From contig NZ_CP121110.1 of NCBI RefSeq assembly GCF_029625315.1, forward strand, positions 310,001 through 374,000: a DNA stretch of 64,000 bases, written 5' to 3'. The translations under genes and the position numbers were made by a program. This DNA is from Flavobacterium ginsengisoli. Lineage in GTDB: Bacteria; Bacteroidota; Bacteroidia; Flavobacteriales; Flavobacteriaceae. This document shows positions 3,962 through 61,442 of the stretch, piece after piece; the stretch's first letter is position 1; each line of letters opens with the position of its first letter. The notes beneath the pieces were generated by a model. The model was given only the letters and a program-made list of their open reading frames with translations. It was not told the DNA's origin and did no database searches.

Positions 3962-6422
3962 ATGATAAAGAAATTAATAAGTGCTTGCAGTTTTGTCCAT
4001 GCTTTTAACCACAAACGGACAAGCACAATCAGTCGCAAATACTGATAAACAAATTGTAAAAGTTGACTTTGATTTTTTTCAAAGAAGACTAGAAGAAGTT
4101 CATGATCCTAGTTATGATTCTTGGGTGATTAATGAAGGAAAAGAGGCCGAAAAATCATTTAATAATGTATCTTTTAAGTTAAAAGGAAACTTTACTTCAA
4201 AATGGTACAAAGTTGGAATGAGCGCTCCGTTTTACAACAAATTAGGAAGTGACGGTTTGGTTACGTCCGAAAATTTGGAATTGAAAATCAGTGGACTGAA
4301 AGCTGGAAGACATACACTTTTGACATTTCATAACGCTTTTGATGTCATTACAGGAAAAACTTTTTCTCCGATAAAAATCTACGTAAACGGAAAACTTCAG
4401 GAAACCGTAAATGCAAGTCAGAGAGCCAATGCTAAAATTGATGCTTCTATGGCGTATATTACTTTTAATGCTGAAAAAGGAAAAGATGTAATTGTTCGGC
4501 TTGAAATTGATCCTACTTCAAACCCGGATATTATAAAACAGATTGTAATCAACGGTTTTGAAATTGATACGCCAAATTTAATGAATCAGGCCAGAACTCC
4601 AGAACCAAAAAACAGAGACGAACATGTTGAAGTGGGTAAAACTTTAACTCTAAAATGGGATGCTGTAAAAAACGTAGCATCGCATAAAATATATTTCGGT
4701 GAAGATAAAAATGCGGTAGAAAACGCAACTGAATCTTCAAAAGAATTTAAAGGAAAATTAACAGAGAAATCTTTTACAGTTTCTGATTTATATTCGGGAA
4801 CAACTTATTATTGGAGAGTCGATGAAGTGGATAATAATGGCGAAGTTACATTAGGAAATGTTTGGTCATTTAAACCTGCACAATTGGCGTTTCCAGGTGC
4901 TGAAGGTTATGGACGTTATGCTGTTGGTGGACGTGGAGGAAAAGTGATTGAAGTAACCAATTTAAATGACGATGGTCCGGGAAGTTTACGCGATGCCATT
5001 AATCAGGAAATTGGTCCAAGAACGATCGTTTTTAATGTTTCGGGAAATATAAAACTGGCTTCGAGATTAGTAGCAAATCAGCCTTATATCACTATTGCGG
5101 GACAAACGGCTCCAGGTGAGGGAATCACAATCAGCAGAGCGCCAATTGGATTGACAGGAAATGATGGTGTAATTCGATTTTTGAAAGTGAGAATTGGAGG
5201 CGGAACTACTTTTGACGGAATGGGATTAACGGGCGCAGATTATAGTATTATAGATCACTGTTCAATTAGCTGGACAATAGATGAATCGTTTAGTTCGCGT
5301 GGTGCGCATCATATTACTTTACAGCGAACTTTAATTTCTGAAGCTTTAAACATTGCGGGACATGATAAATATCCTGCTGGAAAAATGCATGGTTTTGCGG
5401 CAACAATTGGTGGAGATATTGGTAGTTTTCATCACAATTTATTGGCACATAATCAAGGTCGTAACTGGAGTATAGGCGGTGGCTTAAACGGTGACGGCTA
5501 TTACACAGGAAGATTGGATATCACAAACAATGTGGTTTACAACTGGGGAGGAAGAACAACTGACGGAGGAGCAAACGAAGTAAATTTTGTAAACAATTTT
5601 TACAAACCGGGTGCTTCAACTACCATATTTGTGGCATTAAATGCACAGCATGAGGGCGTTGGAAAAGGAATGCAACGTTATTATTTTAACGGAAATATTA
5701 TGCCAGGTTATTTTGATGAGAAATCTCAGGATAAAGGCAGAAAATCTACTATAAGTCATAATGAGAAAGTAGATTATGAAACTTTTGTAGACAAACCATT
5801 TTTTCCTTCTTATGTAGAAACGCAATCAGCGAAAGCGACTTACAAAAATGTGCTTTCAGATGTTGGTGCTAATCAGCCGTTTTTTGACAAACACGATAAT
5901 AGAATTGTTGATGAAACTTTAAAAGGAACTTTCACTTATAAAGGCAGTAAAAGCGGTTTAGGCGGAATGATCGATAATGAACAAGATGCAGGCGGATGGC
6001 CAAATTTTGCATCAGAAACTCGTCCGACAGATTGGGATACAGATCATGACGGTTTGCCAAACTGGTGGGAAAAAGCTTTTGGCTTAAACGAAAATTCGAA
6101 AGCTGGAGATTTCTCAGATGCAAATCAAGATAATGACAAAGACGGATTTACGCAATTGGATAATTATTTAGACTGGCTGGCTCAACCTCATTATTTTCTG
6201 AATTCGGGAGAGAAAAAGACTTTAAATGCCACAGATTATTTCCAAGGATACGAAAACAAACCAGTGTATACTTTCTCTGATCTTAAAAATGGAAAAGTGG
6301 TTTTAAAAGGAAAAGAAATTCAGTTTACAACTGTTGAAAAAGGATTTGCTTCTTTCGTCTTAACCGTAAAAGATGCAGACGGAGATTCAATGAGTAGAAT
6401 CATTAATTTCTTTATTAAATAA
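3962..6422 (+). CDS. Polysaccharide lyase family 1 (pectate lyase) with N-terminal beta-sandwich and Fn3 modules
   Basis: About 819 residues once the start is repaired. Residues ~25-195 resemble a carbohydrate-binding beta-sandwich. Residues ~205-300 are fibronectin-III-like (LYSGTTYYWRVDEVDNNGE). The PL1 parallel beta-helix starts at AFPGAEGYGRYAVGGRGGK, carries IIDHCSISWTIDES, and extends to about residue 560. A calcium-binding TSP3/dockerin-like stretch follows (DTDHDGLPNWWEKAFGLN). PL1 enzymes cleave de-esterified polygalacturonan by beta-elimination. The long frame starts with a GTG at 3981 and has no basic n-region. ATG 3962 gives MIKKLISA, and deleting one T in GCTTGC (3983-3988) fuses it to AVLSMLLTTNGQAQ, a standard signal peptide. 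Confidence 0.88.
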
Positions 6423-6429
6423 AAAAAGG

Positions 6430-6646
6430 TTTCACGCAGATTTGGCTGATTTAGGCAGATCTGCGCAGATTTTCTTAAAGAATAAAAATCAACAAATATC
6501 TGCTAAAATCTGCAAAATCTGCGTGAAAAAAAATCAGATTAGGAGATTATAATAGATTAAAAGAAAAAAATAAATCAGCGCAATCTGCTAAATCTGCGAG
6601 GAAAATTTAAACTCTCGCAGATTTAGCAGATCCAGCAGATTAAATT
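6430..6646 (+). repeat. Cluster of R2 inverted repeats filling the gap
   Basis: A hairpin from TTTCACGCAGATTTGG to AAATCTGCGTGAAA (about 6430-6529) is followed by a second pair, CTGCTAAATCTGCGAGG and CTCTCGCAGATTTAGCAG. The space between the lyase stop and the next start is almost entirely repeat. Confidence 0.75.
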
Positions 6647-6655
6647 TATATCAAA

Positions 6656-8674: not shown

Positions 8675-8732
8675 ATTTTGGACGCGGATGAAACGGATTT
8701 TTAAATTTGTCATAGAAGTATAAACGCACAGT

Positions 8733-8840: not shown

Positions 8841-8868
8841 TACAAGATAAATAAGTAAATTGAAAAAC

Positions 8869-9855: not shown

Positions 9856-9911
9856 TGCTTTAATTTTACCCAAAATAGGGAACCTTAAACAGAACAAAAT
9901 TTTAATTTAAC

Positions 9912-10563: not shown

Positions 10564-13500
10564 ATGAAACAAGCACTTATAAGAAGATGTAGTTTTCTTT
10601 TGTTTGCACTGATGAGTGTATTGAGTTATGCTCAAGGCTCTAGTAATCAAGTTACGGTAACAGGAGCTGTTACTGATAATACATCAGGCCTTCTTCCTGG
10701 CGTAAATGTAACTGAGAAATCTACAAAGAATACAGTTACAACAGATTTTAATGGTAAGTATCAAATAAAAGTAAGACAAGGCGCTACTTTAGTGTTTTCA
10801 TTTATAGGAATGAAAAAATTAGAAATTCCTATTAATGGACGTACTGTAGTAGATGCAAAATTAGCTGAAGATTCAAATGAACTTCAAAATATAGTTGTAG
10901 TAGGTTACGGTACACAGAAAAAGGAAAAACTTACGGGTGCGATTGCAACAATTAATGCAGCAGATGTACAAGATTTACCTGTTTCTAACTTATCTGATGC
11001 ATTGAAAGGATTGGTTCCTGGATTGGCTGTTATAGATGGAGGCGGACGTCCTGGTGATGCTGCTTCATTACAAATTCGTCAAACATTTAGTTTTTCTAAA
11101 GATGGAGGATTTAATACACCATTAATTGTAATTGATGATATGGTTCAGGTAGATCCAGTATCTGGTTTTCCAACTTTAGATGCTTTTAACCGTTTGGATC
11201 CTTCAGAGATAGAAAGTATTACTGTATTAAAAGATGCTTCTGCGGCTATTTATGGTTCTCGTGCTTCACAAGGAGCAATTGTGGTTAAAACAAAAAGAGG
11301 TAAAGCTGGTGTTACCAAATTTTCATACTACAGTCAGTTTGCAGTAAATGATGCGGTAAGCCATAGTAAAACCATGAGCGCTTATGATTATGGAGTTTGG
11401 TCTAATAGATATCTGTCTGTAAAAAATTTAAGCAATAATGGGGTTGGTTATTTTTCTGATCGAGAATTAGAAGAAATGAAAGGCTTGAATTATGATTGGT
11501 TAAAAGAAGCTTGGAAACCAGCAATTCAAGACAAACATACTTTGACAGTTACTGGTGGTAACGAAAAAATGACATATTTTGCAGGTTTAAACTATTTTAC
11601 TCAAGGAGCTAATTTAGGTAAGCAAGATTATCAAAAATGGAATTTTAGAACTGGTATTAATGCTAAAATTTCTAATTCAATGGATTTTTCTGTCGCAATT
11701 GCTACCAATTCTGGAGACATAGAAAAATCGTTTACTAAAGCATCTGCTAATATCAATGACAGTAGTTATGGTAGTATTGCAGGTGGTGGTGAGCAAGCTG
11801 ATTATGGTTATTTGCTACATATGCCTAAATATATTCCTTGGGAAACGGTAGTTAATGATAAAGAATATTACATGTCTCCATTTCCTAAAACAACTAGAAC
11901 TTTAGGAAGTGCTAATGCTAATACTACAATTGCAGGGTGGAACTATTTTGCAACATTAAACAATGGTTCGAAACAAATTTCAGATGATTTTTCATATAAC
12001 GTGAATATGTCTTTGAACTATAAAGTTCCTTTCGTAAAAGGATTATCTCTTAAAGGTACGTTTGCAAGAACAGAAAGCACAGGATATACAGAACAAGTTC
12101 AGTTACCATTTGACTTGGCAAGAATTGTTGGATACGAAAAAGCAGATATGCACTTAGCAAGTTCTGCAGTTCCAACTACTGTAAATAATGGTGTTGACCC
12201 TTATTATCAAATTGATACTAACGTTCGTAACTCACGCGTATACTATAATACTTCTCTTAGCAGAAATAATCAAGCTAACTTTTTTGCAAACTACGCAAGA
12301 GTATTTGGTAATCATGATGTTAGTGGTATGGTTGGTATGGAGCGTACAGAAGCTGAATACAGAACAACACGTTTAGCATATGAAGGTACAGGAAAAGATT
12401 ATGCTGGAACTTATCAGACAGCAGGAACAATTTCTTCAAACTCAATTAATACAAAAGGAGAATCAGGAACACTTTCTTACTTAGGTAGATTTAATTACAG
12501 TTTTAAATCTAGATACTTATTAGAGTTCCTTTTCCGTAGCGATGCTTCAACAAAATTTGCTCCTGAAAACTATTGGGGATTCTTCCCATCACTTCAAGCA
12601 GGTTGGATTGTGTCTAAAGAAGATTGGTTTACTAAAGCATTGCCAGGTGTAGATTTTCTTAAACTTCGTTATTCTATTGGTAAAACAGGAAAAGATAACG
12701 TACAAGCTTGGAGATGGATGCAGTATTATGATGTTATTGTTGATAAAGGTGCTGTGTTTGGAACTGGTGCTACTGGTGGATCTTTAGGAGGAGGAGTTAC
12801 TCCAAAAGTTAACCCAAATAGGAATGTTGGTTGGGATACAACAATCAAAAACAACGTTGGGCTTGATGTAAATGTATTGAAAAATAGATTGCAAATTAGT
12901 ACTGACTTCTATTATGATAGAACAACAGATATGTTAACTAACATGGCTGGTGCTGTTGGTGTGCCAATTTCAGTTGGTGGTGGTTTTGCTGAACAAAACT
13001 ATGCAGCTGTTGATGCTTGGGGACTTGAGGTAAGTTTGAACTGGAGTGATAAAATCAAAGATGATTTTAGTTATAATGTTGGAGTGAACTTTGGTTACTC
13101 AGATAATAAAGTGAAAAAATATCCAGAGCAAGCTTTGCAACATCCATCATTTAATGTAACTCAAACTGGATCTTCTTCTTTCTTCCCATACTGGGGATTC
13201 AAAACTTGGAACGGAACATCTACTGGAGACGGAATTTTACGTACAGATGAAGATATTGCAAACTACTGGGCTTACTTATCAGAAAGAGCTGCTGCAGCCG
13301 GAACAACACCTAGTTTTAATAAAATTACAAGTATATCTGGTATGATTAAAGGTATGTTGGCTTATGAAGATGTCGGTGGAGCATTTGATCCTGCAACTGG
13401 TAAACAAGCAGGACCTGACGGAAGAATTGATAAAAATTTGGATTATCAGAAATTAGTAAATACAAATAGAACCTATGGTTTTACTACCAATTTAGGTATG

Positions 13501-13947: not shown

Positions 13948-13961
13948 AAAAATAAGTAATT

Positions 13962-15934
13962 ATGAAACTAAGAATAAACTCAATATTAACTCTTGCAGTA
14001 TTACTTATAGTTAGTGCTTCATGTAGTGACAATTTTCTTGAAGATAAGAAAAATTTTGGACAGATTGATGATTCATTTTATGAAAGTCAAGAGCGTACAA
14101 ATTGGTATATAAACAACCTATATTATGACTTTTTCTATGCATTTAAGTCTCCACAAGCTACTTTTGTAGGTCAGTACACCGATGCATATTCTAGATTAAC
14201 AGAAGAAATAGGAGGAATTACAGACCTTGTAAATCCAACAAAAACATTAGTAAATTCTGATGATGCAACAAATTATTTTGGAACAAAACTAGAAGATAAA
14301 ATTAAAAATGAGCCTTACAACCGTATCAGAGACTGTAATAGCTTCTTAGAAGAAGTAGATGTAAAAGGATCTAGTTTAGATAAAACATTCCGTGATCGTG
14401 CAAAAGGCCAAGTGTATTATTTAAGAGCGCTTCAATATTTTGATTTAATGCGAATGTATGGAGGTGTGCCTCTTGTTACTTCAACACAAGCGACAACTTC
14501 TACAAATGATGCAATTAAATTGCCAAGAGCTTCAGTTACTGAAGTAGTAAATCAAATTGTTGCAGATTTAGATATGGCAGCTTCGTTATTACCAGGAAAC
14601 TGGCCAGACGCAGGCGCAGATTATGGACGCTTTACAAAAGGAGCAACTTTGGCACAAAAAGCAAGAGTACTATTAACCTATGCAAGTCCATTGTTCAATA
14701 AAAACTGGGATGGTTCTACAGAAAGATGGGATGCTGCACTACAAGCTGGTTTAGCGACAGAAACTCAATTGACAGCTGATGGATATGGCTTATACGGAAG
14801 TTCAGCAAAACAATGGAATGATATGTTTACATTAGAAGGATTTAATAAAGAAGCTATTGTGGTTCAATTGTTAGGAAACGGAGCAACTCTTTCTGTTAGT
14901 AATAACAATTCATGGGAAAAAGCAATGCGTTTAGTTAGCCAAGGCGGTACAGGAGCATTTGAAGCGCCAAAAGAAATGATCGACTTGTTTCCAATGGATA
15001 ACGGAAAAAAACCTACAGCAGCCAATGGTTACGATCCTTTCTTATTCTTTAAAAAACGTGATCCTAGATTTTACAGAACATTTGCTTTTTCTGGAATGAA
15101 ATGGGGATATGCAGAAAGTACAAGCAGTGTAGCTTGGTCTTATCGTTGGTTAGATGGATCAGATAAAGATAAACCATACTTTAGTGACAATAATCAAGAA
15201 AATAGCCCTGCATACGTAAGAAAAATGTCAAATGTTACTGCATCAAATGCTAGTAGTTTCCAATATTCTGTAACTAATATTCTTGAGTATCGTTATGCAG
15301 AATTGTTACTAAATATTGCTGAATGTTACGCTGCAAAAGGCGATATTGGTAATACAATTAATTACCTAGGAAAAATTAGAGCTCGTGTAGGAATTCCTTC
15401 TGCTGATAACTACGGAATTGGTATTTTGGCTGATAAATATGCTTGCTATTGTCGCTTGTTTATATGAGCGTAGAGTAGAATTAGCTTACGAAGGAAAACG
15501 TTTTTGGGATGTGCAGCGTTGGATGCTTTACAGTGATGAAGCTCTTCCAGGTATTAATGGTGGGACAGTTTCTAAATTAGGTTTAACGCCAATTAACGGT
15601 ACACAACGTACAGGATATTATTTACAATATAAAAATGTCGCTACTAAAACAGATCCATTGTCTAGTGCACGTGCAGCAATCAGCGTAGATCCTGATTCAG
15701 CTAATTTTAGCAGTCAAATTGACGCTTTAGCAACTTTTTACACTGATAATTTTGTATTCACAAACTTATTGACTCCAATGGATAACGTAAACAACGTTGC
15801 TGCGCAAATTAAATTTAACCCAAACTATTATATAATGGGGTTACAAACAAGTATTCTAACTCAGAATAACTGGTTGCAAGCAAACGGTTGGATGGAACGG
15901 CGGAACCGCTGGAACCTTCAATTATCAAGAATAG
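13962..15934 (+). pseudogene. susD: SusD-like outer-membrane glycan-binding lipoprotein, two frame breaks as assembled
   Basis: The signal peptide carries a lipobox (LIVSASCSDNFL), so this is a surface lipoprotein partner of SusC. TPR-like helices and the RagB/SusD segment YLRALQYFDLMRMYGGVPLV are clear. The frame stops at 15467. Removing one T from GCTTGC at 15441-15446 continues into YERRVELAYEGKRFWDVQRW, a core SusD motif. A second break, GCAAGC at 15876-15881, when reduced to GCAGC gives WLQQTVGWNGGTAGTFNYQE with a stop at 15932-15934, the usual SusD ending. The repaired protein is 656 residues. Both breaks are insertions in GCWGC, so I expect the gene to be functional. Without that second fix the frame runs on to 15954 with an unlikely C-terminus. 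Confidence 0.9.
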
Positions 15935-17878: not shown

Positions 17879-18559
17879 ATGAAATTAATAAAAAATATAG
17901 GTGTTTTAATGATGTTTTTAGTGTTTGGGAGTAATATTGCGCAACAACATTTAGATCCTGAATATGTAAAAGTTACCAACGAAAGAGTCGCGAAAATCGT
18001 TACCAAATTAGATTTGAAAAACGAAGCAAAAGAAAAAGTAGTTTCAAATATCATCGCGCAACAATTTAGAGATTTAACTGAAATTCAGGATGGAAGAGAT
18101 GCTGAAATCAAAAAAGTAAAAGAAGATACTTCTTTAGTTAAAGAAAAGCAAAACGAGAAAATTGATAAACTGAAAGCAAAGGCAGACGAGTCAATTGCAA
18201 AACTGCATAAATCTTATATCAAAAAATTAGGTAAAGAATTATCAGAAGATAAAATCACTGAGGTAAAAGACGGAATGACTTATGGAGTGCTTCCTATCAC
18301 AGTCGCAGGTTACAACGATATGTTGCCAAATTTAACTGCAGAACAAAAAGACTATATCTACAAAGCTTTAGTTGAAGCCAGAGAGTATGCAATGGATGCG
18401 GGTTCATCTAAAGAAAAACACGGCTGGTTTGGTAAATACAAAGGAAGAATCAACAATTATTTATCAAAACAAGGTTACGATTTAAATAAAGAAAGTGCTG
18501 ACTGGCACAAACGTATCGAAGAAAGAGAGAAAGCAAAAGATTCTACTGCAAAAGAATAA
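17879..18559 (+). CDS. DUF3826 domain protein
   Basis: 226 residues. A signal peptide (MKLIKNIGVLMMFLVFGSNIAQ) is followed by a highly charged, mostly helical protein with likely coiled coil at ~60-115. The signature TYGVLPITVAGYNDMLPNLT and EAREYAMDAGSSKEKHGWFG fit DUF3826, which repeatedly neighbours pectate lyases in Bacteroidota. No catalytic motif is visible. It lies between two PL1 paralogs in the same direction, so I infer a periplasmic or surface accessory role in pectin use; no function is established that I know of. Confidence 0.8.
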   Translation: MKLIKNIGVLMMFLVFGSNIAQQHLDPEYVKVTNERVAKIVTKLDLKNEAKEKVVSNIIAQQFRDLTEIQDGRDAEIKKVKEDTSLVKEKQNEKIDKLKAKADESIAKLHKSYIKKLGKELSEDKITEVKDGMTYGVLPITVAGYNDMLPNLTAEQKDYIYKALVEAREYAMDAGSSKEKHGWFGKYKGRINNYLSKQGYDLNKESADWHKRIEEREKAKDSTAKE

Positions 18560-18601: not shown

Positions 18602-20308
18602 ATGCAAAATATTTTTCCCAACTGTACTTTAAAGAGAACATTAATGGCTTTCTCATTTTGTTCCCTTGTTTCGTCGGCGTATGCCCAATATCCAGTAATT
18701 CCAAAACCTGTTCAGGAAAAAGCAGATGCTATTTTAGCTGATGAAGAAAAAAGATTGAGCGAAATATGGAATGCTAATTATCACATTATTAAAGAAGAAG
18801 CAAAACAAGGGAAACCGTATTTACCTTGGGCATTCTATCCAAAAGATTTTGTTTTTGCTGATATTCCTGCTTTTCCAGGTGCAGAAGGTGGTGGAGCTTA
18901 CACACAAGGTGGACGTGGCGGAAAAATATTTGTAGTGACAAGTTTAGAAGACAGCGGAAAAGGAACTTTCCGTGAAGCTTGTGAAGCGGTAGGAGCAAGA
19001 ACAATTGTTTTTAATGTTTCGGGAATTATTCAATTGAAAAAAAGAATCAGTATGCGTGCGCCTTACGTAACTATTGCAGGGCAAACCGCTCCGGGTGACG
19101 GAATCTGTATCGCCGGAGAAACTTTAGAAATCGACACGCACGACGTTATTATCAGACATATGCGTTTTCGCCGTGGCGCTACAGAAGTTACTAGAAGAGA
19201 TGATGCATTGGGCGGAAACCCAATGGGAAATATCATTGTAGATCACTGTTCTGTAAGCTGGGGATTGGACGAAAATATTTCTTTATACAGACATCAATTT
19301 GCGGCTAATGCAAAATCAAAACTGGAGAAATTACCAGCTTGTAATATCACGATTCAAAACACTATTTCATCAGAAGGTTTAGATACTTATAATCATGCTT
19401 TTGGAAGTACAATCGGCGGATTAAATAGTACTTTTATGCGCAACTTATGGGCCGACAACATTTCAAGAAATGCTTCTATCGGAATGTATGGCGACTTTAA
19501 TTTTGTGAATAACGTAGTATTTAATTGGTGGAATCGTACTCTTGATGGCGGTGATTATCGTTCGATGTTGAACATCATCAACAACTATTTTAAACCAGGG
19601 CCAATAACGCCACAAAACGAACCTATTGCACATAGAATCGTAAAACCTGAATCTGGATATATTGAACCAAAACAATACGGAAGAGCTTACGTTTCAGGAA
19701 ACTTTATTGTAGGTTCTCCAGAAGTTACAGCAGACAACTGGAATGGAGGAGTACAATTGGAAAACCTTCCAGAAGCGGAAACAAAAGAATTTTTAGCGAC
19801 AATTAAACAGCCAAAACCTTTTTCAATGCCAAAATTCAATATCATGTCGGCAGAAGAAGCTTATGATTTTGTTTTGACGAATGTTGGAGCAACAATTCCG
19901 AAAAGAGATGCTGTTGACGAAAGAGTCATCAAACAAGTTCGTACAGGAAAAATCGAAGTAAAAGATGGTTTAGAAAATAATATCGGAAAAGAATATATCA
20001 AAAGAAGATTACCAGCTGACTCATATAAAAAAGGAATTATAACGCATCCTGATCAAGTTGGCGGATATCCAACTTACAAAGGAAAAGCTTATAAAGATTC
20101 AGATAATGATGGAATTCCAGATGCTTGGGAGAAGAAATATGGCTTAAATCCTAACGATGCTTCAGATGCCAATAAAGATGCAAACGGAGATGGTTACACC
20201 AATATCGAAAAATATTTTAACGGAATCGATCCAAACACTAAAGTTGATTGGACGAAAACGGAAAACAATACAGATACATTGTCAAAATTAAAGTCTTTAT
20301 TACAATAG
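18602..20308 (+). CDS. Polysaccharide lyase family 1 (pectate lyase), second paralog
   Basis: 568 residues with signal peptide ending AYAQ and the same plan as the gene at 16038: Glu/Lys-rich helix, PL1 beta-helix (IPAFPGAEGGGAYTQGGRGG, IVDHCSVSWGLDENIS, DTYNHAFGSTIGG), then a calcium-binding tail (DSDNDGIPDAWEKKYGLNP). The main differences from its paralog are in loops around the RHQFAANAKSKLEKL insert, which may tune chain length or methylation preference. Pectate lyase activity is assigned from family membership. Confidence 0.92.
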   Translation: MQNIFPNCTLKRTLMAFSFCSLVSSAYAQYPVIPKPVQEKADAILADEEKRLSEIWNANYHIIKEEAKQGKPYLPWAFYPKDFVFADIPAFPGAEGGGAYTQGGRGGKIFVVTSLEDSGKGTFREACEAVGARTIVFNVSGIIQLKKRISMRAPYVTIAGQTAPGDGICIAGETLEIDTHDVIIRHMRFRRGATEVTRRDDALGGNPMGNIIVDHCSVSWGLDENISLYRHQFAANAKSKLEKLPACNITIQNTISSEGLDTYNHAFGSTIGGLNSTFMRNLWADNISRNASIGMYGDFNFVNNVVFNWWNRTLDGGDYRSMLNIINNYFKPGPITPQNEPIAHRIVKPESGYIEPKQYGRAYVSGNFIVGSPEVTADNWNGGVQLENLPEAETKEFLATIKQPKPFSMPKFNIMSAEEAYDFVLTNVGATIPKRDAVDERVIKQVRTGKIEVKDGLENNIGKEYIKRRLPADSYKKGIITHPDQVGGYPTYKGKAYKDSDNDGIPDAWEKKYGLNPNDASDANKDANGDGYTNIEKYFNGIDPNTKVDWTKTENNTDTLSKLKSLLQ

Positions 20309-20567: not shown

Positions 20568-23500
20568 GTGAATTTCGATCAATTAAAAAATATAGTTTCT
20601 TCTTTTAAAAACACATTTTCTTTAATGTGTATTACTCTGTTTATTAGCGGAAACATCACAGCCCAAAACAATTCCCCAGACATTGTAAAAACCAAAGAAG
20701 GCAAACTTTCTTTCACAGCTGATAATCAAGGAAATCAAATCCCAGATTTTTCTTTTGCAGGCTATAGAAACTCAGAAGTTGCCATTCCGAATTTGGATAA
20801 CAAAATTTTTGTTTCGCAGACAAGAAGAAGATGCAACACAGAAAATCCAAAATGCAATTGATTATGTAAGTTCTCTTAAACCAGATAAATCAGGGTTTCG
20901 TGGAGCAGTTTTGTTAGACAAAGGAACTTTCAAAATCAGTGGAACATTATACATTAGAAAATCGGGAGTTGTTTTAAGAGGAAGCGGTAATACCGAAAAC
21001 GGAACTGTACTTTTAGGAACCGGATTAGAAAGAGAAGCTCTAATTAGAATTTTGGGTGAAAATGATAAAGTGTACAAAGATTCATTTGAATTCGCAAACG
21101 CTTACACGCCACTTGGAACACAGAAAATCCAATTAAAAAATACATCAAAATTAAAAGTTGGCGAGGAAATCGAAATCAGCAAACCTTTAACGGATAATTT
21201 CATTAAAGAGGTTAAAATGCAGGATTTCGGCGGAGAAACTTCTTGGATTGGCTGGAAAAAAGGGGATTGGACGACAACTTGGAATCGTGTTGTAACCAAA
21301 ATCAACGGAAACGAAGTAACGGTAAATGCTCCAATCACAATGTCTTTAGATGATGTTTTCGGGACTTCTAAAGTAACTGTTTATTCTTGGCAAGGAAGAA
21401 CTGAAAATAACGGAATTGAAAATATCTTAATTAAATCAACCTATAATTCTTCAAATTTAAAAGACGAAGAACATAGATGGCAGGCAATCAGCATTGAAAA
21501 TACCAGAAATGCGTGGGTAAAACAAGTTAATTTCAAACACTTTGCAGGCGGAGCTGTTACGATTTTAAAAACAAGTCAGCAAATTACAGTTGAAGATTGT
21601 ATTGCTACAGAACCAATTTCAGAAATCGCTTCATTCAGAAGACATACTTTTTATACCGAAGGTCAGCAGACTTTATTCCAGCGTTGTTACTCCGAATTTG
21701 GATATCATGATTTCGCCGTGGGCGGATTCGGAACAACTGGACCAAATGTGTTCGTACAATGCGAATCACATTTGCCATTCGAAAACAGTGGCGCAATCGG
21801 AAGCTGGGCAACTGGAGTTTTATTTGACATTGCTAATATCGACGGAAAAGCATTAAGCTATAACAACAGAGAACAAGGCGGAAGAGGCGCTGGATGGACA
21901 GCCGCTAATTCTGTAATCTGGGAATCATCGGCTTCAAAAGTTGAATGTTATAGTCCGCCAACAGCACAAAACTGGGCTTTTGGAGTTTGGGGACAATTTG
22001 GAGGAAACGGACATTGGAAAAACGTAAACGAACATATCAGTCCAAGAAGTTTATTCTACACACAACTAGAAGCTAGATTAGGAAAACTTCCAGTTCAGCC
22101 ATTTATCTATGATTTAGGTTCAGAAGCTTCTTCAAGTCCGAGTGTAGAAGTTGTCGCAGAATTGACTAAAAACTCTGCTACAACGGCAAAAAGTTTACAA
22201 GAATTGATTGCAGAAGCTTCAAAAGCAAATCCGATTAATACAGACATTAAAGGTTTAAAAAATGCAAACGATTTAAAAGTTGCATCAAATAAAACAGAAA
22301 AATCAACTTCTAAAGTAACTACAGAAAATGGCTGGTTAACTTTTGAAGGAAAAGTAATTGCAGGAAAACAAACGAACGTAGCATGGTGGAGAGGCGATTT
22401 AAGTGATGATTTCGTTAACAAATCAACACCACATATTACTCGTTTTGTACCTGGAAGAACAGGAAACGGATTGACAGATAAAGTACAGGAAACAGTAGAT
22501 TATTTGACTAAAAATAATATCGTTGCCTTAGAACACAATTACGGTTTATGGTACGAAAGAAGAATGGACGATCACGAACGCGTACGCCGATTTGATGACG
22601 ATGTTTGGCCTCCATTTTACGAACAACCTTTCGCAAGAAGCGGAAAAGATTTCGCTTGGGATCATTTAAGTAAATATGATTTAACAAAATTCAACGATTG
22701 GTACTGGAGCCGTTTAGCGCAGTTTGCAACGCTGGCAGAACCAAACGGACAAATGTTAATCAATCAGCAATATTTTCAGCACAATATTTTAGAAGCTGGA
22801 GCGCATTGGGCAAGTTCGCCTTGGCGTTCAGCAAACAATATCAACAGCACGGGATTTCCGGAGCCACCACCATACGCAGGAGACAAACGTATTTTTATGG
22901 CGGAGCAGTTTTATGATATTACGAATGCCGAAAGAAGAAAATTACACGAAGGTTTCATCAGAAAATCGTTCGAAAACTTTCAGGAAAACAGCAACGTAAT
23001 TCAGTTAACAAGTGCCGAGTATACAGGTCCGTTACATTTTATGGAATTCTGGTTAGACCAAGCCCAAAAATGGAAAGACGAAACAGGAAAAAAAGGCTTA
23101 ATTGGATTAAGTGCTACAAAAGACGTTCAGGATGCTATTTTAAATGATGCTAAAAGAAATAAAACCGTTGACGTAATCGACATTCGTTATTGGTATTACA
23201 AAGAAGACGGTTCAGCTTACGCTCCACAAGGAGGCGTAAATTTAGCACCAAGACAGCACGCCAGAAAACTAAAAACCGGAAAAGAAACCGATAATCAAGT
23301 GTATCGTGCAGTTAGAGAATACAGAGAAAAATATCCTGAAAAAGTCATTTTATATTCAACAGACGGTTCTTCAAGATTTGGATGGCCGGCTTTAATGGCG
23401 GGAGCTTCATTGCCAAATATTCCAAAAATCGAATTGCCTCAGTTTTATTCTGCTTTAAGCGAAATGAAATTAGTTGATGGAAATACGTTTTCAGATAATC

Positions 23501-34946: not shown

Positions 34947-37399
34947 ATGAAGTTAAAAATTAAAATAACGGCAATCTGTATCGGAATTTTTTCCTTGACA
35001 GCAACAGCACAAAATGACCTAAAATTATGGTACGATAAACCCGCATCAATCTGGAACGAAGCTTTACCTTTAGGCAACGGACGTTTGGGTGCAATGGTTT
35101 TTGGCGATCCAGCGGTAGAACGTTTACAATTGAACGAAGAAACCATTTGGGCAGGTTCTCCAAACAGCAATGCACATAATAAATCTATTAAAGCACTTCC
35201 AATTGTTCGTCAGTTAATTTTTGACGGAAAATTTGAAGAAGCGCAGGATTTGGCGACGCAAGATATTATGTCGCAAACTAATGACGGAATGCCGTATCAG
35301 ACTTTTGGAAGCGTTTATATTTCATTCGCTGGACATCAAAAATATACGGATTATTACCGTGATTTAGATATCAGCAATGCTACGGCGAAAGTAAAATACA
35401 AGGTAAACGGTGTTGAATTTACGAGAGAAATTTTAACCGCATTTTCAGATCAGGTAATTGTAGTAAAACTTTCTGCTAGTCAGCCGGGACAGATTACTTG
35501 TAATGTTTTCATGAACAGTCCGATTGATAAGACAGTTGCATCCACAGAAGGAAATCGGATTATACTTTCGGGAGTTGGAACTAACTTTGAAGGTGTAAAA
35601 GGAAAAGTAAAATTTCAAGGCCGATTAACAGCTAAAAACAAAGGCGGTGAAATAGATGCCAGCAACGGTGTTTTAAGTATCAACAAAGCTGATGAAGTAA
35701 TTTTATACATTTCTATTGCTACGAATTTCAAAAACTATCAGGATATTTCAGGAGATGAAATTGCGAAAAGCAAAGATTATTTAGCAAAAGCCGAAGTAAA
35801 AGATTTTGAAACGATTAAGAAAGCCCACGTTGATTATTACCAAAAATTCTTCAACAGAGTTGCTTTAAATTTAGGCTCAAATGATTTGATTAAGAAACCA
35901 ACAAACGAAAGAATCAGGGATTTCTCTAAACAATTTGACCCGCAATTGGCGAGTTTGTATTTCCAGTTTGGACGTTATCTTTTAATTTCAAGTTCACAGC
36001 CAGGCGGACAGCCAGCCAATTTACAAGGAATTTGGAACGACATGGTCACTCCGCCTTGGGATAGTAAATACACAACAAACATTAATGCCGAAATGAATTA
36101 CTGGCCGGCACAAGTAACCAATTTGCAGGAAATGCACGAACCTTTTGTACAAATGGCAAAAGAGTTGGCTGTAACTGGTGCAGAAACTGCCAAAACAATG
36201 TACAATGCTAGCGGTTGGGTTTTACATCACAATACCGATATTTGGCGTGTAACTGCTCCGGTAGATTCAGCTGCGTCGGGAATGTGGCCGACGGGTGGCG
36301 CTTGGGTTTGTCAGGATTTATGGGAAAGATATTTATATACAGGAGATAAAAAATATTTAGCAGAAATTTATCCAATCATGAAAGGTGCTTGCTGATTTCT
36401 TTTTGGATTTCATGGTGATAGATCCAAACACAAAATATTTAGTTGTTGTTCCTTCAAGTTCTCCTGAAAACACACACGCAGGCGGAACAGGAAAAGCAAC
36501 AATTGCATCAGGAACTACAATGGATAATCAGTTGGTTTTTGATTTATTTACGCATGTTATGGAAGCTTCGGCTTTGGTTTCTCCTGATGCTTGCTTATGT
36601 GAAAAAAGTAAGTGATGCTTTGGCAAAAATGCCACCAATGAAAGTCGGAAAACACAATCAGTTGCAGGAATGGCAGGAGGATTGGGATAACCCGAAGGAC
36701 AATCACAGACACGTTTCGCATTTGTACGGATTGTATCCAAGTAATCAGATTTCGCCAATTAAGACGCCTGAATTATTTGAAGCGACCAAACAATCTTTAA
36801 TTTACAGAACAGACGAATCTACAGGTTGGTCAATGGGCTGGAAAGTGAATTTATGGGCGAGATTATTAGACGGAAATCATGCTTATAAATTAATTCAGGA
36901 TCAATTGCATTTGGTAACAGCGGATCAAAGAAAAGGTGGCGGAACGTATCCGAATATGTTAGATGCGCATCAGCCATTTCAAATTGACGGAAATTTTGGA
37001 TGCACAGCCGGTTTTGCAGAAATGTTAATGCAGAGTCAGGAAGATGCGATTCATTTATTGCCTGCTTTGCCAAGCGTTTGGAAAGATGGAAGCATAAAAG
37101 GGTTAGTGGCAAGAGGTGGATTTGTAATTGATATGACTTGGAAAAATAATAAAGTTTCGGAGTTAAAAATCTATTCGAAAATAGGGGGAAACTGCCGATT
37201 GAAAGTTGAGAATAGACTGAAAGGTTCTTCGCTTAAAAAAGCAAAAGGAAAGAATCCGAATTCGTTGTTTTACGATGTAGAAGTGAAGAAACCGATTATT
37301 TCTAAAGAAGCAAAACTGCCTAAAGTGCAATTGCCAACTTACAATATTTATGATGTAAATATGAAAGCAGGGCAGACGTATACTTTTTCGGGGAATTAA
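34947..37399 (+). pseudogene. GH95 alpha-L-fucosidase/alpha-L-galactosidase, two frame breaks
   Basis: The start ATG 34947 gives signal peptide MKLKIKITAICIGIFSLTATAQ; the upstream GTG at 34929 lies inside a repeat arm. The N-terminal beta-domain has ALPLGNGRLGAMVFGD. The barrel holds TTNINAEMNYWP (two active-site Asn), LQEWQEDW (putative acid Glu) and IDGNFGCTAG (catalytic Asp). The frame breaks at 36387-36392 and 36589-36594 are both GCTTGC. Deleting a T in each restores KGAADFFLDF and PDAAYVKKVSDAL and yields 816 residues. GH95 enzymes act on alpha-1,2-L-fucose; an RG-II-targeting member acts on L-galactose. With GH140 nearby either is possible. Both breaks look artefactual. Confidence 0.87.
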
Positions 37400-45702: not shown

Positions 45703-48456
45703 ATGAATACCCAAAAACAGCATACTATGAAATATTTACAATTACTTTTTTTATGTCTTTACGTCTCTTTCGCGACAGCGCAGAACATCACAGTTGTGAG
45801 TGATCCGAGTTCGCCGAGAGCAAAATTTGGAGCAGAGAAATTATCAGAAACCCTTTCAGCAAAAGGATTCAGCGTAACTTCTTCTGATAAATTCAAAAAA
45901 TCAAAAGATAAAGTAATTGTAATTGGAGAAAAAGGAACCGATTTCTGGAAGAAAAATGCTAAAAGCGCTAAAATCGATGATAGCAAATTAACCAAGAAAG
46001 AAGGTTTCCAGATTCGCACTCAAAATAATATAATTTATATTGAAGGAACAGATGCAAGCGGAGCTTTGTATGGCGCTTTAGAATTAACAGATAAAATTAA
46101 AGCTTCAGGAAAACTTCCTTCAGAAATCAATATTGACGATAGTCCAGAAATGGTTTTGAGAGGCGCTTGTATCGGAATGCAGAAACCGGTTTATCTGCCT
46201 GGACGAGATGTTTACGAATATCCATATACGCCAGAAACTTTTCCGTGGTTTTATGATAAAGCTTTATGGATTAAATATTTAGATATGCTGGTAGAAAACC
46301 GCATGAACTCTTTGTATTTATGGAACGGACATCCATTTGCTTCTTTGGTGAAACTAAAAGAATATCCGTTTGCAGTTGAAGTGAGTGATGAAGATTTCAA
46401 AAAGAACGAAGAAATCTATAAATTCTTAACAGTTGAGGCCAACAAACGTGGAATCTGGGTAATTCAGATGTTTTATAACATTATTGTTTCTAAGCCTTTT
46501 GCAGAGCATTACAACATTAAAACACAAGATCGTTCAAGACCAATCACGCCATTATTGTCTGATTATACTAGAAAATCTATTGCGGCTTTTATCGAAAAAT
46601 ATCCAAATGTTGGATTAATGGTTTGTTTGGGAGAAGCAATCAATACCGTTGATGATGATGTAGAATGGTTTACCAAAACTATTATTCCGGGTGTTCGTGA
46701 CGGTTTACAAGCATTAGGAAAAACAGAAGAACCACCAATTATTCTTCGTTCTCATGATACAGATGGGCCTTTAGTAATGGAAAAATCACTTCCGTTATAC
46801 AAAAACTTATATACAGAAAGTAAATATACAGGAGAATCTTTAACGACTTATACGCCGGGAGGTCCTTGGGGAGAAACGCACAAACAATTAAGCGCTTTAA
46901 AATCAATTCACATTGAGAACGTTCATATTTTGGCTAATTTAGAACCTTTCAGATACGGTTCACCAGACTTTATTCAGAAAACGGTAAAAGCAATGCATAG
47001 CGTTCACGGAGCAAATGCACTGCATTTATATCCGCAAGCTTCGTATTGGGATTGGCCATATTCGGCAGATAAAACGAAATCAGGAGAACGTTTATTAGAA
47101 ATGGATCGTGACTGGATTTGGTACAAAGCTTGGGCAAGATATGCTTGGGACAGCAAAAGAGATAGAAATGAAGAAGTTAAATTTTGGGATAATGATTTAG
47201 TCGCAAAATTCGGAACGAGTCAGGAAGCTGCAAATAACATTTTAAAAGCTTACGAAGAAACAGGAGAAATTGCTCCAAAAACATTAAGACGTTTCGGAAT
47301 TACAGAAGGTAACCGTCAGACTTTATTGTTGGGAATGTTTGAAAGTCAGTTGGTCAATCCGTCAAAATGGAGAGTTTATCCAGGATTCCACGAATCATGC
47401 GGACCAGCGGGCGAATTGCTTTTAGAATATGCTAAAAAAGAGTGGAACAAAGAACCGCATTCGGGCGAACTTCCAACTCAGATTATTGCTGAAATTACAG
47501 AACATGGAAGATTGGCAGTTGAAGCAATAGATAAAGCAGAAGCAAGCATAACTAAAGACAAAGAAGAATTTGCACGTCTTAAAAATGATATGCATGCTTA
47601 TAAGGCTTTCGCCGATTTCTTCTCAGAAAAAGTAAAAGCCGCTTTATTGGTTTTAAGATACAGTTATTCAAATGATATTACCGATTTAGATAAAGCTTTG
47701 CCTCATTTAGAAAAGAGCATTGAGTACTATGAGTTATTGGTAAAACTAACAAAAGATACGTACTATTATGCTAACAGTATGCAGACTGCTCAACGCCGAA
47801 TCCCGATTGGAGGAGACGACGGAAACAACAAAAATTGGGCTGAATTGTTACCGCATTATGAGCGTGAATTGGCTAATTTCAAAAGAAATCTAGAGAAGCT
47901 AAAATCTTCAAAAGACGGTAAAATAGAAACTAAAGAAGGAAAACCTTGGAAACCAGCCGAAGTAACTTTTATAGATGAAAAACCGGGAACGTATCTAGTT
48001 AAAACAGGGACAAAAGTGTACGGAACAGATATTTCTGAATTGACCAAAGTTGCTCCAGAACTTCAGAATTTAAGAGGTTATTCTTTTGTTGAAAACGATC
48101 AAAACGAAAAAGGAACACATTTGAAGTTTAGAAATACAAAAGCGGTTAAATTAGTGGTAGGATATTTTAATTCTGATCAGAAGCGATTTTTATTGTCGCC
48201 AAGTTTGGAGACAGATGCAGCAGGAAATGCGCACGGTCAAGCTGAAGTAATTCTGGCAAGTGCAATGAATTTAAAAGATTTACCTCGTGTAAACATTCAT
48301 ACCTATACGTTCCAGCCGGGCGAGAATAAATTAGATTTAGGAAAAGGAAAAGTATTGATTTTAGGTTTCATCGACGCAGATCAAACTATAACACCACGTG
48401 ATGTTGGATATATCGATGCAGGAGAAAAAGCGACAATTGACTGGTTGTTTTATTAG
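45703..48456 (+). CDS. Putative glycoside hydrolase with GH67N/GH20b-like N-terminal domain
   Basis: 917 residues. A second in-frame ATG at 45727 gives the cleaner signal peptide MKYLQLLFLCLYVSFATAQ and may be the true start. Residues ~25-150 resemble the alpha-glucuronidase N-terminal domain (IYIEGTDASGALYGALELTD). A TIM barrel follows (~165-480) with MVLRGACIGMQKPVYLPGRD, NRMNSLYLWNGHPFASLV, LMVCLGEAINTVDDDVEWF and AMHSVHGANALHLYPQASYW, then a helical domain and a C-terminal sandwich. Glu in CLGEAIN is an attractive catalytic candidate. Classical GH67 or GH115 signatures are not evident. I infer an alpha-uronidase or similar exo-enzyme for pectic or arabinogalactan chains. Confidence 0.62.
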   Translation: MNTQKQHTMKYLQLLFLCLYVSFATAQNITVVSDPSSPRAKFGAEKLSETLSAKGFSVTSSDKFKKSKDKVIVIGEKGTDFWKKNAKSAKIDDSKLTKKEGFQIRTQNNIIYIEGTDASGALYGALELTDKIKASGKLPSEINIDDSPEMVLRGACIGMQKPVYLPGRDVYEYPYTPETFPWFYDKALWIKYLDMLVENRMNSLYLWNGHPFASLVKLKEYPFAVEVSDEDFKKNEEIYKFLTVEANKRGIWVIQMFYNIIVSKPFAEHYNIKTQDRSRPITPLLSDYTRKSIAAFIEKYPNVGLMVCLGEAINTVDDDVEWFTKTIIPGVRDGLQALGKTEEPPIILRSHDTDGPLVMEKSLPLYKNLYTESKYTGESLTTYTPGGPWGETHKQLSALKSIHIENVHILANLEPFRYGSPDFIQKTVKAMHSVHGANALHLYPQASYWDWPYSADKTKSGERLLEMDRDWIWYKAWARYAWDSKRDRNEEVKFWDNDLVAKFGTSQEAANNILKAYEETGEIAPKTLRRFGITEGNRQTLLLGMFESQLVNPSKWRVYPGFHESCGPAGELLLEYAKKEWNKEPHSGELPTQIIAEITEHGRLAVEAIDKAEASITKDKEEFARLKNDMHAYKAFADFFSEKVKAALLVLRYSYSNDITDLDKALPHLEKSIEYYELLVKLTKDTYYYANSMQTAQRRIPIGGDDGNNKNWAELLPHYERELANFKRNLEKLKSSKDGKIETKEGKPWKPAEVTFIDEKPGTYLVKTGTKVYGTDISELTKVAPELQNLRGYSFVENDQNEKGTHLKFRNTKAVKLVVGYFNSDQKRFLLSPSLETDAAGNAHGQAEVILASAMNLKDLPRVNIHTYTFQPGENKLDLGKGKVLILGFIDADQTITPRDVGYIDAGEKATIDWLFY

Positions 48457-52291: not shown

Positions 52292-52337
52292 AGATTGTAG
52301 AAATTTGGAATTTTAAAAAAGAGATTATTTATATATT

Positions 52338-58104: not shown

Positions 58105-58762
58105 ATGGAAAAAGAAAATACCACAAAAATAAAAGGAGAAATTTTGCTGGGTATTATTTTTGCCCTAGAATTATACGCCTTGCCTGTACAGTTTTATTTA
58201 CTGTTGAAAAATCCTGAATTCACTTTTTTTAGTGCAAGCAGTTCGTTTTTTTAGTTTCTTTACCATTACAACCAATACGATTGTTTTTATTTGCAGTGCT
58301 TTGTTATTATTTGGCGGCAAAAGTAAGGCAAATGCTTTTTTCAGAAAGTGTACTACTATTACGGCCATTACAGTTTATATATTGATTGTCGGAATTGTTT
58401 TTAATGTGCTCCTTCGCCCAATTTTAGATTTGCAAGGACACCATCGCATTGTAAGCGAAATTTTCCATACTGTTGTACCAGTTTTATTTTTCTTTTTCTG
58501 GCTGTTTTTTGTAAGTCCAGAAAAGATCTCTTTTAAAACCATTTGGTTTTGGTTGGTTTACCCGATTATTTACATGATTTATACCATAATCCACGGTTTT
58601 ATTTCTAGTTTTTATCCTTATCCTTTTATTGATGTTACTAAGCTCGGATTGCAAACAGCACTCATAAACGGAGTTTTCGTTTTAATCTCTTTTGTGGTAT
58701 TGTCTGTGATTTTGATTTCGATTTCAAAAATTAGGACTAAGAAGATTAGCTTGGAAAACTAA
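58105..58762 (+). pseudogene. Pr6Pr-family six-TM membrane protein, one frame break
   Basis: ATG 58105 starts MEKENTTKIKGEILLGIIFA and the frame stops at 58254. A second frame continues VRFFSFFTITTNTIVFICSA and four further membrane helices. GCAAGC at 58234-58239, reduced to GCAGC, joins them as FFSAAVRFFSFF and gives 218 residues with about six membrane helices. RFFSFFTI is the typical Pr6Pr motif. Function of the family is unknown. An ORF caller would wrongly start this gene at 58232 and lose the first helix. Confidence 0.78.
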
Positions 58763-59051: not shown

Positions 59052-59067
59052 TCAAAAGATTTCTACT

Positions 59068-59430
59068 ATGATAAAATTAGCCAAACGAGAAGAACAGATT
59101 ATGCAGGTTTTTTGGGATTTAAACAAAGCCTTCATCAGAGACATTATTCCATTGTTGCCAGATCCGAAACCACATTATAATAGTGTTGCAACGATTGTCA
59201 AAATATTAGAAGAAAAAGGGTTTCTAAATCGGGAAACAATAGGGAATATGCATTGCTTTTTTCCGGTAATTCAAAGAGAAGAATATCAACAATTTGCGCT
59301 TAAAGATGTTGTGAGTCAATATTTTGATAATTCGTATCCACGTATGCTTGCCTTTTTTGCTAAAGAGCAAAAATTAACCGAAAAAGAATTGGACGAAATC
59401 GTAAACATGATAAAAAAAGATTCTATATGA
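59068..59430 (+). CDS. blaI: BlaI/MecI/CopY-family repressor
   Basis: 120 residues. A winged helix covers ~1-75 (LAKREEQIMQVFWDLNKAFI, PHYNSVATIVKILEEKGFLN) followed by a dimerisation helix region. The family represses its own operon until a membrane metalloprotease of the BlaR1/M56 type inactivates it. The stop codon overlaps the start of the M56 gene (ATGA at 59427-59430), showing translational coupling. Two palindromes and a promoter lie just upstream. No beta-lactamase gene is seen nearby, so the signal is probably something else. Confidence 0.92.
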   Translation: MIKLAKREEQIMQVFWDLNKAFIRDIIPLLPDPKPHYNSVATIVKILEEKGFLNRETIGNMHCFFPVIQREEYQQFALKDVVSQYFDNSYPRMLAFFAKEQKLTEKELDEIVNMIKKDSI

Positions 59431-61442
59431 TACCATATATTCTATACACAGCGCTTATTCTTTTTGCTTGTCTTATGTTTTATAAGTCTGCTTTTGCAGA
59501 AGGAAACTTTTTATAATTTGAATAGATTTATTTTGCTGGCGTGCATGCTAGTAGCTTTTACTTTGCCGTTGCTCCCGATTCCGCAAGCAATTCTCCCTTC
59601 AAAAACAAAAAGAAACTGCGGCTATTCCTTCCATAAAAAAAACATTTGCAAAAGAATCAACTGCTGAGCTGAAAACACTTCCTGTAAATGAAGTTTTAGT
59701 AAATGAAACAAAGCAACAGTTTAATATGTCTTTGATCCTACAGTGGATAGTGTATTTGTATTGGTTTGGTGTCATTGTTTTTGCGCTTAATTTTTTGATG
59801 CAAGCGGTTATATTATTTTACAGAGCGTACACATCAGAGATTATTAGGGATGGAAAATTTAGAATTGTCGAAATAACAGGCGATAAAGCACCTTGTTCTT
59901 TTGCTAATAATATTTTTATAAATCCTGAAAAATACGAATGGGAAACGTACAATCAGATTTTGCTCGCATGAAAAAATTCACATTGAGCAAAAACATACTA
60001 TTGATCTTTTGCTTGCAGAAATCGTACTTGTTTTTCAGTGGTTTAATCCTTTTGCTTGGCAATGGCGAAAAGCATTAGAAAGTAATCTTGAATTTTTGAC
60101 TGATAACGAAATGCTACAACAAGGTAGCGTAGAAAAAGAAAGTTATCAATTTAGCCTGCTAAAAGTAGCGGCGCCACAATTTCCTTTGAGTCTTACAACT
60201 AATTATAATCAATCATTACTCAAAAAACGAATCATTATGATGAATTCAAAAAAATCAAACGTAAACACAACATGGAAATATTTTTTCCTGTTACCATTAT
60301 TGGTATTGTTTGCCTGCCTTTTTAATCAACCGGCAGCGCAAAGTCAGACGCTAACTTCGAATATTAAAAACGAAGGAACTAAAGCGAGTCCAAACACTCA
60401 AAAGGGTGATCAAACGGAAGGAAACTGGTTTGCCACAATCAAAGGCAATAAAGTAGAAATGGAGTTTAAAAACGACGAGAATAGTCATTCTACTCATACT
60501 TATGATATTAGCGAGTTTAGCGGATTATCAAAAGATAAACAAGGAACATTTTCTCTAACGCGTGAAGCGGGAACAATGAACTTTACCGGAAAATTTGAAG
60601 GAAATAGTGGAAAGGGAACGTATAAGTTTGTTGGCAATAAAAATTTCGCCAAAGAAATGGTCGCACAAGGGATTACATTGGCAGATGATACAGATCTTAT
60701 GGTTTTCTTTGCTGTAAATATAAAAACGTCGTATGTAAAAATGCTGCATAAAAAAGGGTATAAAAATGTAGACAAAGAACAAGTAATTCCGTTGGCGGCT
60801 TTAAACGTAAGTGAAGATTACATCGATTCTATTAAAGATGCCGGAATTGGAAATATAGATATTGAAACGCTGATTCCTTTTAAATCCTTAAACATTGATA
60901 AAGCTTTTATTGAAGATATTATTAAATCGGGTTATAAAAATGTTTCACCAGAAAATCTGATCACTTTAAAATCTCAAAATATTGACGGAAAGTATATTAA
61001 TGATTACCGTTCTTCGACAAAAACAAAAAAGAATGAAAGTGGAGAAGAAAATGAGGACAATATTGTTGCTTTCAAAACTTTAAACATAGATAAAGCTTAT
61101 ATTGATTCTTTTAAGAAAATGGGTTATAATGATCTTTCAAATGACGACTTAATTGCTTTAAAAGCTTTAAATGTAACTCCAGAATATGTTACTCAATTCG
61201 AAAAAGTAGGTTATAAAAACATTTCGTCTGAAAATCTTGCGGCTTTAAAATCGCAAAATATCACGGCAGATTTAATTAAGGAATATAAGGATTTGGGTTT
61301 TTCAGATCTAGATTTAAATGATATTGTGGGTGCAAAAGCGGTTGGTGCAACGCCAACTTTCATTAAAGCTATGAGAGAAAAAGGACATAACTTTAAAGGT
61401 ATTGAAAAGTATATAGCTTTAAAAGCAGTTGTTGGCAACTAA
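59427..61442 (+). pseudogene. BlaR1-like M56 membrane metalloprotease with C-terminal repeat region; three frame breaks
   Basis: ATG 59427 overlaps the blaI stop. Three insertions break the frame: GTCTGC at 59486-59491, GCAAGC at 59583-59588 and GCTCGC at 59962-59967. Each reverts to GCTGC or GCAGC and the joins read FYKLLLQKETFYNLNRF, PIPQQFSLQKQ and QILLHEKIHIEQKHTID. The last contains the zinc motif HEKIH. The repaired protein has 670 residues with four or so membrane helices. After a further helix (FFLLPLLVLFACLF), residues ~330-670 form an extracytoplasmic domain. It ends in repeats of the type LKALNVTPEYVTQFEKVGYK, not a penicillin-binding domain. It probably senses an unknown ligand and relieves BlaI repression. 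Confidence 0.85.

Follow-up and report, generated by a model that had tools for sequence, protein, structure and literature searches.

The question of frame breaks at GCWGC

The window, a stretch of 64,000 nucleotides (C1:310001-374000) from the one-contig genome of Flavobacterium ginsengisoli (5.41 Mb, 95.5% estimated completeness), raises the question of why eleven single-base insertions that break its reading frames all fall in one motif, GCWGC (GCAGC or GCTGC). A first reading, made from the sequence alone (the sequence-only reading), had proposed long-read errors at a methylated motif and had left true, motif-directed mutation as the alternative. Our comparison with relatives leads to the same answer: with a probability of roughly 0.94, the frame breaks are basecaller artefacts at a probably methylated GCWGC and not mutations.

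We used Flavobacterium sp. IB48, the nearest relative found and a member of the same species, as the main reference. Its contigs are named in the SPAdes style, which points to a short-read origin. We compared 464 kb around the window with 400 kb from the corresponding contig of IB48 and obtained 382 kb of alignment, with identities of 92-99%. GCWGC occurs 1.38 times per kb in IB48 and 0.72 times per kb in this genome. The outgroup relatives G015 and G006 were used to check single insertion sites.

All eleven hexamers of the sequence-only reading are present in the window; on the strand that reads GCTGC, seven are GCTTGC, two GCTCGC and two GTCTGC. Removal of one base restores the motif in each: all 11 are net +1 relative to IB48, which has GCTGC or GCAGC at 10 of them, and G015 has it at the eleventh. 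Since 0.81% of IB48 positions lie that near to a GCWGC, ten of eleven corresponds to a binomial P of about 1e-20, and the claim of a concentration far beyond chance holds. Seven of the insertion sites are readable in G015 or G006; GCWGC is found in at least one outgroup at four of these seven, and the inserted form of this genome at none. The probable misreadings and the remaining frame break are as follows.

3983..3988, + strand: GCWGC misread with one added base (GCTTGC); IB48 alignment
15441..15446, + strand: GCWGC misread with one added base (GCTTGC), SusD-like gene; IB48 alignment
15876..15881, - strand: GCWGC misread with one added base (GCTTGC on the - strand), same SusD-like gene as 15441..15446; IB48 alignment
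20816..20821, - strand: GCWGC misread with one added base (GTCTGC on the - strand); motif intact in G015 too
34152..34157, - strand: GCWGC misread with one added base (GCTCGC on the - strand); motif intact in G015 and G006
36387..36392, + strand: GCWGC misread with one added base (GCTTGC); IB48 alignment
36589..36594, + strand: GCWGC misread with one added base (GCTTGC); IB48 differs, GCTGC in G015
58234..58239, - strand: GCWGC misread with one added base (GCTTGC on the - strand); IB48 alignment
59486..59491, + strand: GCWGC misread with one added base (GTCTGC); IB48 alignment
59583..59588, - strand: GCWGC misread with one added base (GCTTGC on the - strand); IB48 alignment
59962..59967, + strand: GCWGC misread with one added base (GCTCGC); IB48 alignment
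3190..3202, + strand: likely twelfth frame break, near 3198, not at GCWGC; beside a T run

The eleven insertions sit in seven IB48 genes. The sequence-only reading had counted twelve breaks in eight genes and left the twelfth unplaced; this is likely the break near 3198, where IB48 and G006 have CCAGG and this assembly has CGGG, and it would bring the number of genes to eight.

Readings of GCWGC across 382 kb

When indels are counted against the relative by 5-mer, as had been proposed, 83 of the 108 coding +1 insertions fall in the vicinity of GCWGC, with 12 in homopolymers, 12 elsewhere and 1 at CCGG. The 31 coding -1 deletions comprise 16 in homopolymers, 9 at CCGG, 5 elsewhere and 1 at GCWGC. 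Looking at each motif separately, we counted 405 aligned IB48 GCWGC sites whose 4-base flanks are identical in the two genomes. In the GCAGC orientation, this genome keeps the motif at 172 of them and has an added base at 70; it reads GCGAC at 75, GCGGC at 38, GCAAC at 17 and other forms at 33. When 113 further sites with differing flanks are included, the motif is kept at 217 of 518. The insertion footprint is thus concentrated at GCWGC as described, but insertions are the minority of the damage (70 sites vs 163 otherwise changed). In the reverse direction, IB48 has an added base at none of 201 GCWGC sites of this genome (172 unchanged).

When 5-mers represented by 15 or more sites are ranked by +1 rate, GCAGC/GCTGC comes first (70/405), followed by five 5-mers that overlap it. 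These rates bear on the possibility that the assembly comes from error-prone long reads in which modification is irrelevant and GCWGC is merely a hard k-mer. Homopolymer indels, which such an assembly would be expected to have, are indeed present (the 16 deletions and 12 insertions given above). However, comparable 5-mers are little affected: CCAGC is unchanged at 396 of 433 sites, GCAAC at 452 of 490 and GATGC at 505 of 533, with 0, 1 and 0 insertions, respectively, vs 172 of 405 intact for GCAGC/GCTGC. Also, a 23S misreading described below is absent in the single-contig Flavobacterium genomes G133 and G136, whose sequencing platforms may differ. We consider a mere hard k-mer very unlikely.

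The altered words follow a simple pattern. On the GCTGC strand the commonest are GTCGC (75), GCCGC (38), GCTTGC (31), GCTCGC (19), GTTGC (17) and GTCTGC (15), and the rule G-(C/T)2-3-GC, hereafter the pyrimidine rule, fits 195 of 233 altered sites; some of the GCCGC and GTTGC readings are probably natural transitions. In the 332 ungapped sites the mismatches at GCAGC positions 1 to 5 number 4, 6, 127, 102 and 12. The rule and the mismatches opposite 'CT' are as expected if a modified C before T gives an unfamiliar signal.

Concerning the mechanism, the assembly would most likely derive from nanopore reads alone, and the frame breaks would be errors of its consensus. A cytosine-5 methylase would act on both strands of GCWGC, modifying the first C, and a basecaller untrained on this modification would fail at the 'C-T' step of GCTGC, so that 'CT' is written as TC, CC, TT, CTT, CTC or TCT, which are the forms observed. 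The three-letter readings break frames; the two-letter ones give what would be false substitutions, in which Ala is replaced chiefly by Thr or Val. Non-synonymous changes make up 46% of codon changes at GCWGC (137/296) vs 16% elsewhere (1,151/7,165), which likewise speaks against real mutation. The 1,288 amino-acid differences from IB48 include 137 in GCWGC codons (1,058 of the 115,328 codons compared), and 96 of these 137 replace Ala by Thr or by Val.

Essential genes and rRNA copies

When matched to this genome, the IB48 genes rpoA, rplF, fusA and rpsG are split over two frames each and accC over three, and +1 forms are present at GCWGC in these genes. All five count as essential in bacteria, and their breaks speak against real mutation, provided that the genes are single-copy in this strain. 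Four 20-kb regions contain 132 GCWGC sites, of which 77 are unchanged, 45 substituted or otherwise altered and 10 carry an added base; rpoC and rplA in these regions keep their frames.

The ribosomal RNA (rRNA) operons give a second test, in that copies within a genome should be near-identical. A GCWGC site in the spacer shows four readings in five copies (GCGAGC, GCGGC, GCGAC, GCAGC and GCAGC), and at a GCAGC site in 23S, which belongs to the GTPase centre, two copies are readable, one of them with GCGAC. The copies thus disagree at two GCWGC sites, which argues against real mutation. In all, 14 positions vary among the rRNA copies, and five of them lie within these two sites. The 23S misreading 'GATAAGTCGC...' is found at 5 places here; of 397 other Flavobacterium genomes, none has it. 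The misread form of the GTPase centre is likewise absent from all 394 other Bacteroidota searched; in both counts, drafts without a readable 23S also score 0.

A separate difference is seen in 16S. At IB48 operon positions 629-636 the readable copies of this genome differ from IB48 in a four-base cluster that resembles a compensated stem; this probably reflects true divergence between the strains rather than an error at GCWGC.

These observations weigh on the alternative that methylated GCWGC is hypermutable through deamination and faulty repair, and that the genes are really broken. Several features would suit it: the changes are confined to one motif, the GCAAC form, a change of C-to-T type, occurs at 17 of 405 sites, a Vsr gene adjoins a methylase gene in this genome (see below), and +1 forms are rarer at the least diverged sites. 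Yet deamination inserts no bases, and an added base is present at 70 of the 405 sites; genes known as essential are broken; the rRNA copies differ from each other. The GCGAC form has no clear dependence on codon phase (31/152, 3/23, 8/42, 29/153, 1/8 and 3/20, broadly similar rates), and the motif is intact in IB48 despite the same methylase genes. With the essential-gene breaks, the GCGAC form with no clear phase dependence, the discordant rRNA copies and the intact IB48 taken together, motif-directed mutation is hardly credible, and the preference of the sequence-only reading for an artefact at modified GCWGC stands.

Several points count against the artefact reading. Of the GCWGC sites, 172 of 405 are intact. 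The +1 forms are rarer in codon phase 0, in which the motif is at the codon start (regression -1.22, standard deviation (sd) 0.36), and in the least diverged quartile of sites (9/100 vs 23/100); in the regression, divergence has no clear effect on +1 (0.08, sd 0.09), and the flanking bases do have one. These phase and divergence trends could come from selection or from homology polishing. GCSGC is little damaged (118/139 intact, +1 in 1), although Bsp6I-type enzymes target GCNGC, and the form at the rpsG break does not obey the pyrimidine rule. Nine of the 14 variable rRNA positions lie outside GCWGC; five of these nine concern the length called in or next to a base run. Both 23S pattern searches carry no positive control, as the intact form was not counted. 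We had also expected to find the universal GCAGC of 16S misread, and this was not the case: all five 16S GCWGC sites are intact, in 27 of 27 readings from readable copies, which is unexpected at an alteration rate of 58%. One guess is that the basecaller has memorised the rRNA context. More generally, the misfits of 16S, phase and divergence could reflect a basecaller accustomed to conserved sequence, the influence of the flanks or polishing that makes use of homology.

Probable in-frame misreadings in the window

Substitutions are invisible when reading frames are inspected, because the frame is kept. In the window, 67 GCWGC sites are aligned: 25 are intact, 10 carry an insertion, 13 read GTCGC/GCGAC, 10 GCGGC, 2 GCAAC and 7 have other forms. 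The 13 sites of the commonest substituted form, all probable misreadings, are listed below.

5835..5839: in-frame misreading, GCTGC to GTCGC
11692..11696: in-frame misreading, GCTGC to GTCGC
14490..14494: in-frame misreading, GCTGC to GTCGC
14754..14758: in-frame misreading, GCTGC to GTCGC
15451..15455: in-frame misreading, GCTGC to GTCGC
15637..15641: in-frame misreading, GCTGC to GTCGC
17987..17991: in-frame misreading, GCTGC to GTCGC
19796..19800: in-frame misreading, GCTGC to GTCGC
22153..22157: in-frame misreading, GCTGC to GTCGC
42534..42538: in-frame misreading, GCTGC to GTCGC
47200..47204: in-frame misreading, GCTGC to GTCGC
48430..48434: in-frame misreading, GCTGC to GTCGC
60660..60664: in-frame misreading, GCTGC to GTCGC

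Candidate methylases

The sequence-only reading had proposed a search for a methyltransferase of this specificity. We scanned the genome for PF00145, PF01555 and PF02086; the first family, that of the C-5 cytosine methylases, is represented by two proteins, and the two N6/N4 families gave no match in this genome. One of the two proteins is the best candidate for GCWGC, its specificity being judged from its relatives and neighbours. IB48 carries the same two methylase genes, with the motif intact there.

The first methylase (C1:3188408-3189583) precedes an HpaII-family nuclease (PF09561), and an insertion at GCWGC disrupts the beginning of the methylase gene itself. It likely causes a second footprint: 10 of 100 single-base deletions lie near CCGG, which accounts for 0.6% of positions; these deletions would be an indirect sign of CCGG methylation. 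The picture of a single motif is thus correct in that GCWGC dominates, but CCGG adds a weaker footprint of deletions, for which the methylase beside the HpaII nuclease would be the likely source. At the HpaII-family nuclease gene (C1:3189580-3190731 vs positions 9537-10622 of the IB48 locus) the DNA no longer aligns with IB48, whereas the preceding methylase is 98% identical; from the sequences compared, the nuclease gene seems to be an exchanged allele or a rapidly diverged one.

The second methylase (C1:4007465-4008451, 328 aa, unbroken, PF00145 at 285 bits) adjoins a Vsr gene (PF03852). No match to nuclease families was found in the six further open reading frames that flank it, three of which have no Pfam match, and no Bsp6I-family nuclease is found among the flanking frames, the neighbour being Vsr. 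Based on its neighbours and relatives, this protein is the likeliest GCWGC enzyme, as the best candidate available. We inspected seven plasmid relatives (50-54% identity) among 15 matches listed in a search of at most 5000 records: four have a Bsp6I-family nuclease as neighbour, one an NgoFVII-family nuclease and Vsr, and one a nuclease with a PLD domain; in the seventh, the methylase is preceded only by a hypothetical protein. The recognition block YQxRRxYVRxNK..PTLTANMGxGGHNVP is found in all eight aligned rows (the 328-aa methylase and the seven relatives). Many 5-methylcytosine (m5C) methylases may share a portion of this block; as a whole it suggests a GCNGC-like target. It also occurs in the methylase beside the NgoFVII-family nuclease and for this reason leaves the motif unfixed, a further point against our interpretation. 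The enzyme may be specific for GCWGC, or it may methylate GCNGC with misreading at GCWGC only. Among the 120 matches listed, the names of homologues gave no specificity, and neither did the 25 phage matches listed, save one gene labelled hpaIIM; the hint at specificity came from the plasmid neighbours.

GCWGC could instead be modified by another enzyme, from a methylase family outside the three scanned, a plasmid or a prophage gene, with the Vsr-linked methylase having another target. N4-methylcytosine (m4C) enzymes for GCWGC exist, according to the part of the source used here (PMC6329791), and our scans covered PF00145, PF01555 and PF02086. Against this, the two footprints pair one to one with the two m5C enzymes, and the recognition block is common to methylases beside Bsp6I-family nucleases. 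We regard another enzyme as unlikely and retain the Vsr-linked methylase as the candidate.

A match to the 328-aa methylase is found in 69 of 121 Flavobacterium genomes, and the identity is at least 80% in 13, this genome included. At 20 methylase loci, a Vsr-like gene lies within about 1.5 kb in all 13 with at least 80% identity and was not found in the other seven. The Priestia megaterium plasmid NZ_CP065336.1 carries a 52%-identical methylase near Vsr, an NgoFVII-family nuclease and a regulator; the Vsr link therefore occurs also on a Gram-positive plasmid. A trace of Vsr repair, sought as Markov counts of GTWGC in IB48, gave nothing striking (GTAGC 1.00, GTTGC 1.05). On balance we lean towards the view that a Flavobacterium lineage keeps a chromosomal GCWGC methylase together with its own Vsr, a counterpart of Dcm-Vsr with another motif, and that a finished assembly is enough to reveal the modification, with no need for raw signal.

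Consequences for the assembly

Scaling the site density and site rates of the 382 kb to 5.41 Mb gives about 7,500 GCWGC sites, over half of them misread or otherwise unlike IB48, and about 1,100 false frame breaks; a few percent of the differences would be natural. The genome consists of one contig and looks finished despite these hidden errors. The in-frame errors are worse for users, as they place false amino acids in otherwise intact genes without any flag. Such assemblies are an unsafe basis for inferring gene loss, counting pseudogenes, studying protein evolution or typing strains; broken genes should be taken as intact until reads contradict, and in-frame replacements of Ala by Thr or Val at GCWGC should not be trusted either. 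The footprint also hints at the methylases of the strain.

Other features of the window

Positions 6656-9855 and 10564-25281 contain GH127, pectinesterase, a SusC/SusD pair, DUF6298 and apiosidase-like genes, which suggests a pectin-type polysaccharide utilisation locus. The window also contains a dispersed element, some 105 bases in length, at 8733-8839, 20372-20502, 37449-37552 and 52168-52298; it matches copies in an IB48 locus, in both orientations, which are 80-88% alike.

Comparison with known systems

Among the publications listed in our literature search, none describes such a GCWGC artefact in Flavobacterium. Bsp6I-type enzymes are GCNGC-specific, and Dcm-Vsr of E. coli consists of an m5C methylase with the Vsr mismatch nuclease. 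The methylases of the Bsp6I-family plasmid systems (pAF22, pSt0, pTM1) are 51-53% identical to the 328-aa methylase over 94-95% of the query and have the same recognition block; they differ in their neighbour, a Bsp6I-family nuclease there vs Vsr here, and in the Bsp6I-type GCNGC target, whereas the footprint here is at GCWGC and not clearly at GCSGC. GCGGC and GCCGC are named as Bsp6I sites in the part of PMC3884633 used here. Both Dcm-Vsr and ScmA-VsrA of Caulobacter (PMC12907096) likewise combine an m5C methylase with a Vsr-type nuclease, on other motifs; in the portion of that paper drawn on, the Caulobacter vsrA is unlinked to the methylase gene, whereas the two are linked here.

Concerning the motif, the orphan M.Pin25611FIII of Prevotella intermedia, also of the Bacteroidota, gives m5C at position 2 of GCAGC and GCTGC, as far as the excerpt of PMC5608340 goes. 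M.BatI methylates the first C of GCWGC (PMC8936443, in the part used, cited in PMC10687267). Consensus errors of nanopore basecallers are concentrated at Dcm sites in the results drawn from PMC6591954; these are likewise an m5C motif outside the training data, with homopolymer errors next, but the motif is CCWGG and the group Enterobacteriaceae.

The closest parallel is Listeria monocytogenes ST87, whose nanopore genomes are of low quality with errors at GCAGC, as given in the consulted part of the Modpolish paper (PMC10687267). The GCAGC/GCTGC motif is the same, and the errors are likewise lineage-specific consensus errors put down to an untrained modification. It is a different phylum, and the candidate there is the mza system; the errors described in that part are mismatches, with a method that ignores gaps, whereas here there are frame-breaking insertions and a pyrimidine-run rule. 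Modification-driven nanopore errors at GCAGC are thus already published for Listeria; the present case contributes a clear rule for the errors and a specific enzyme as candidate.

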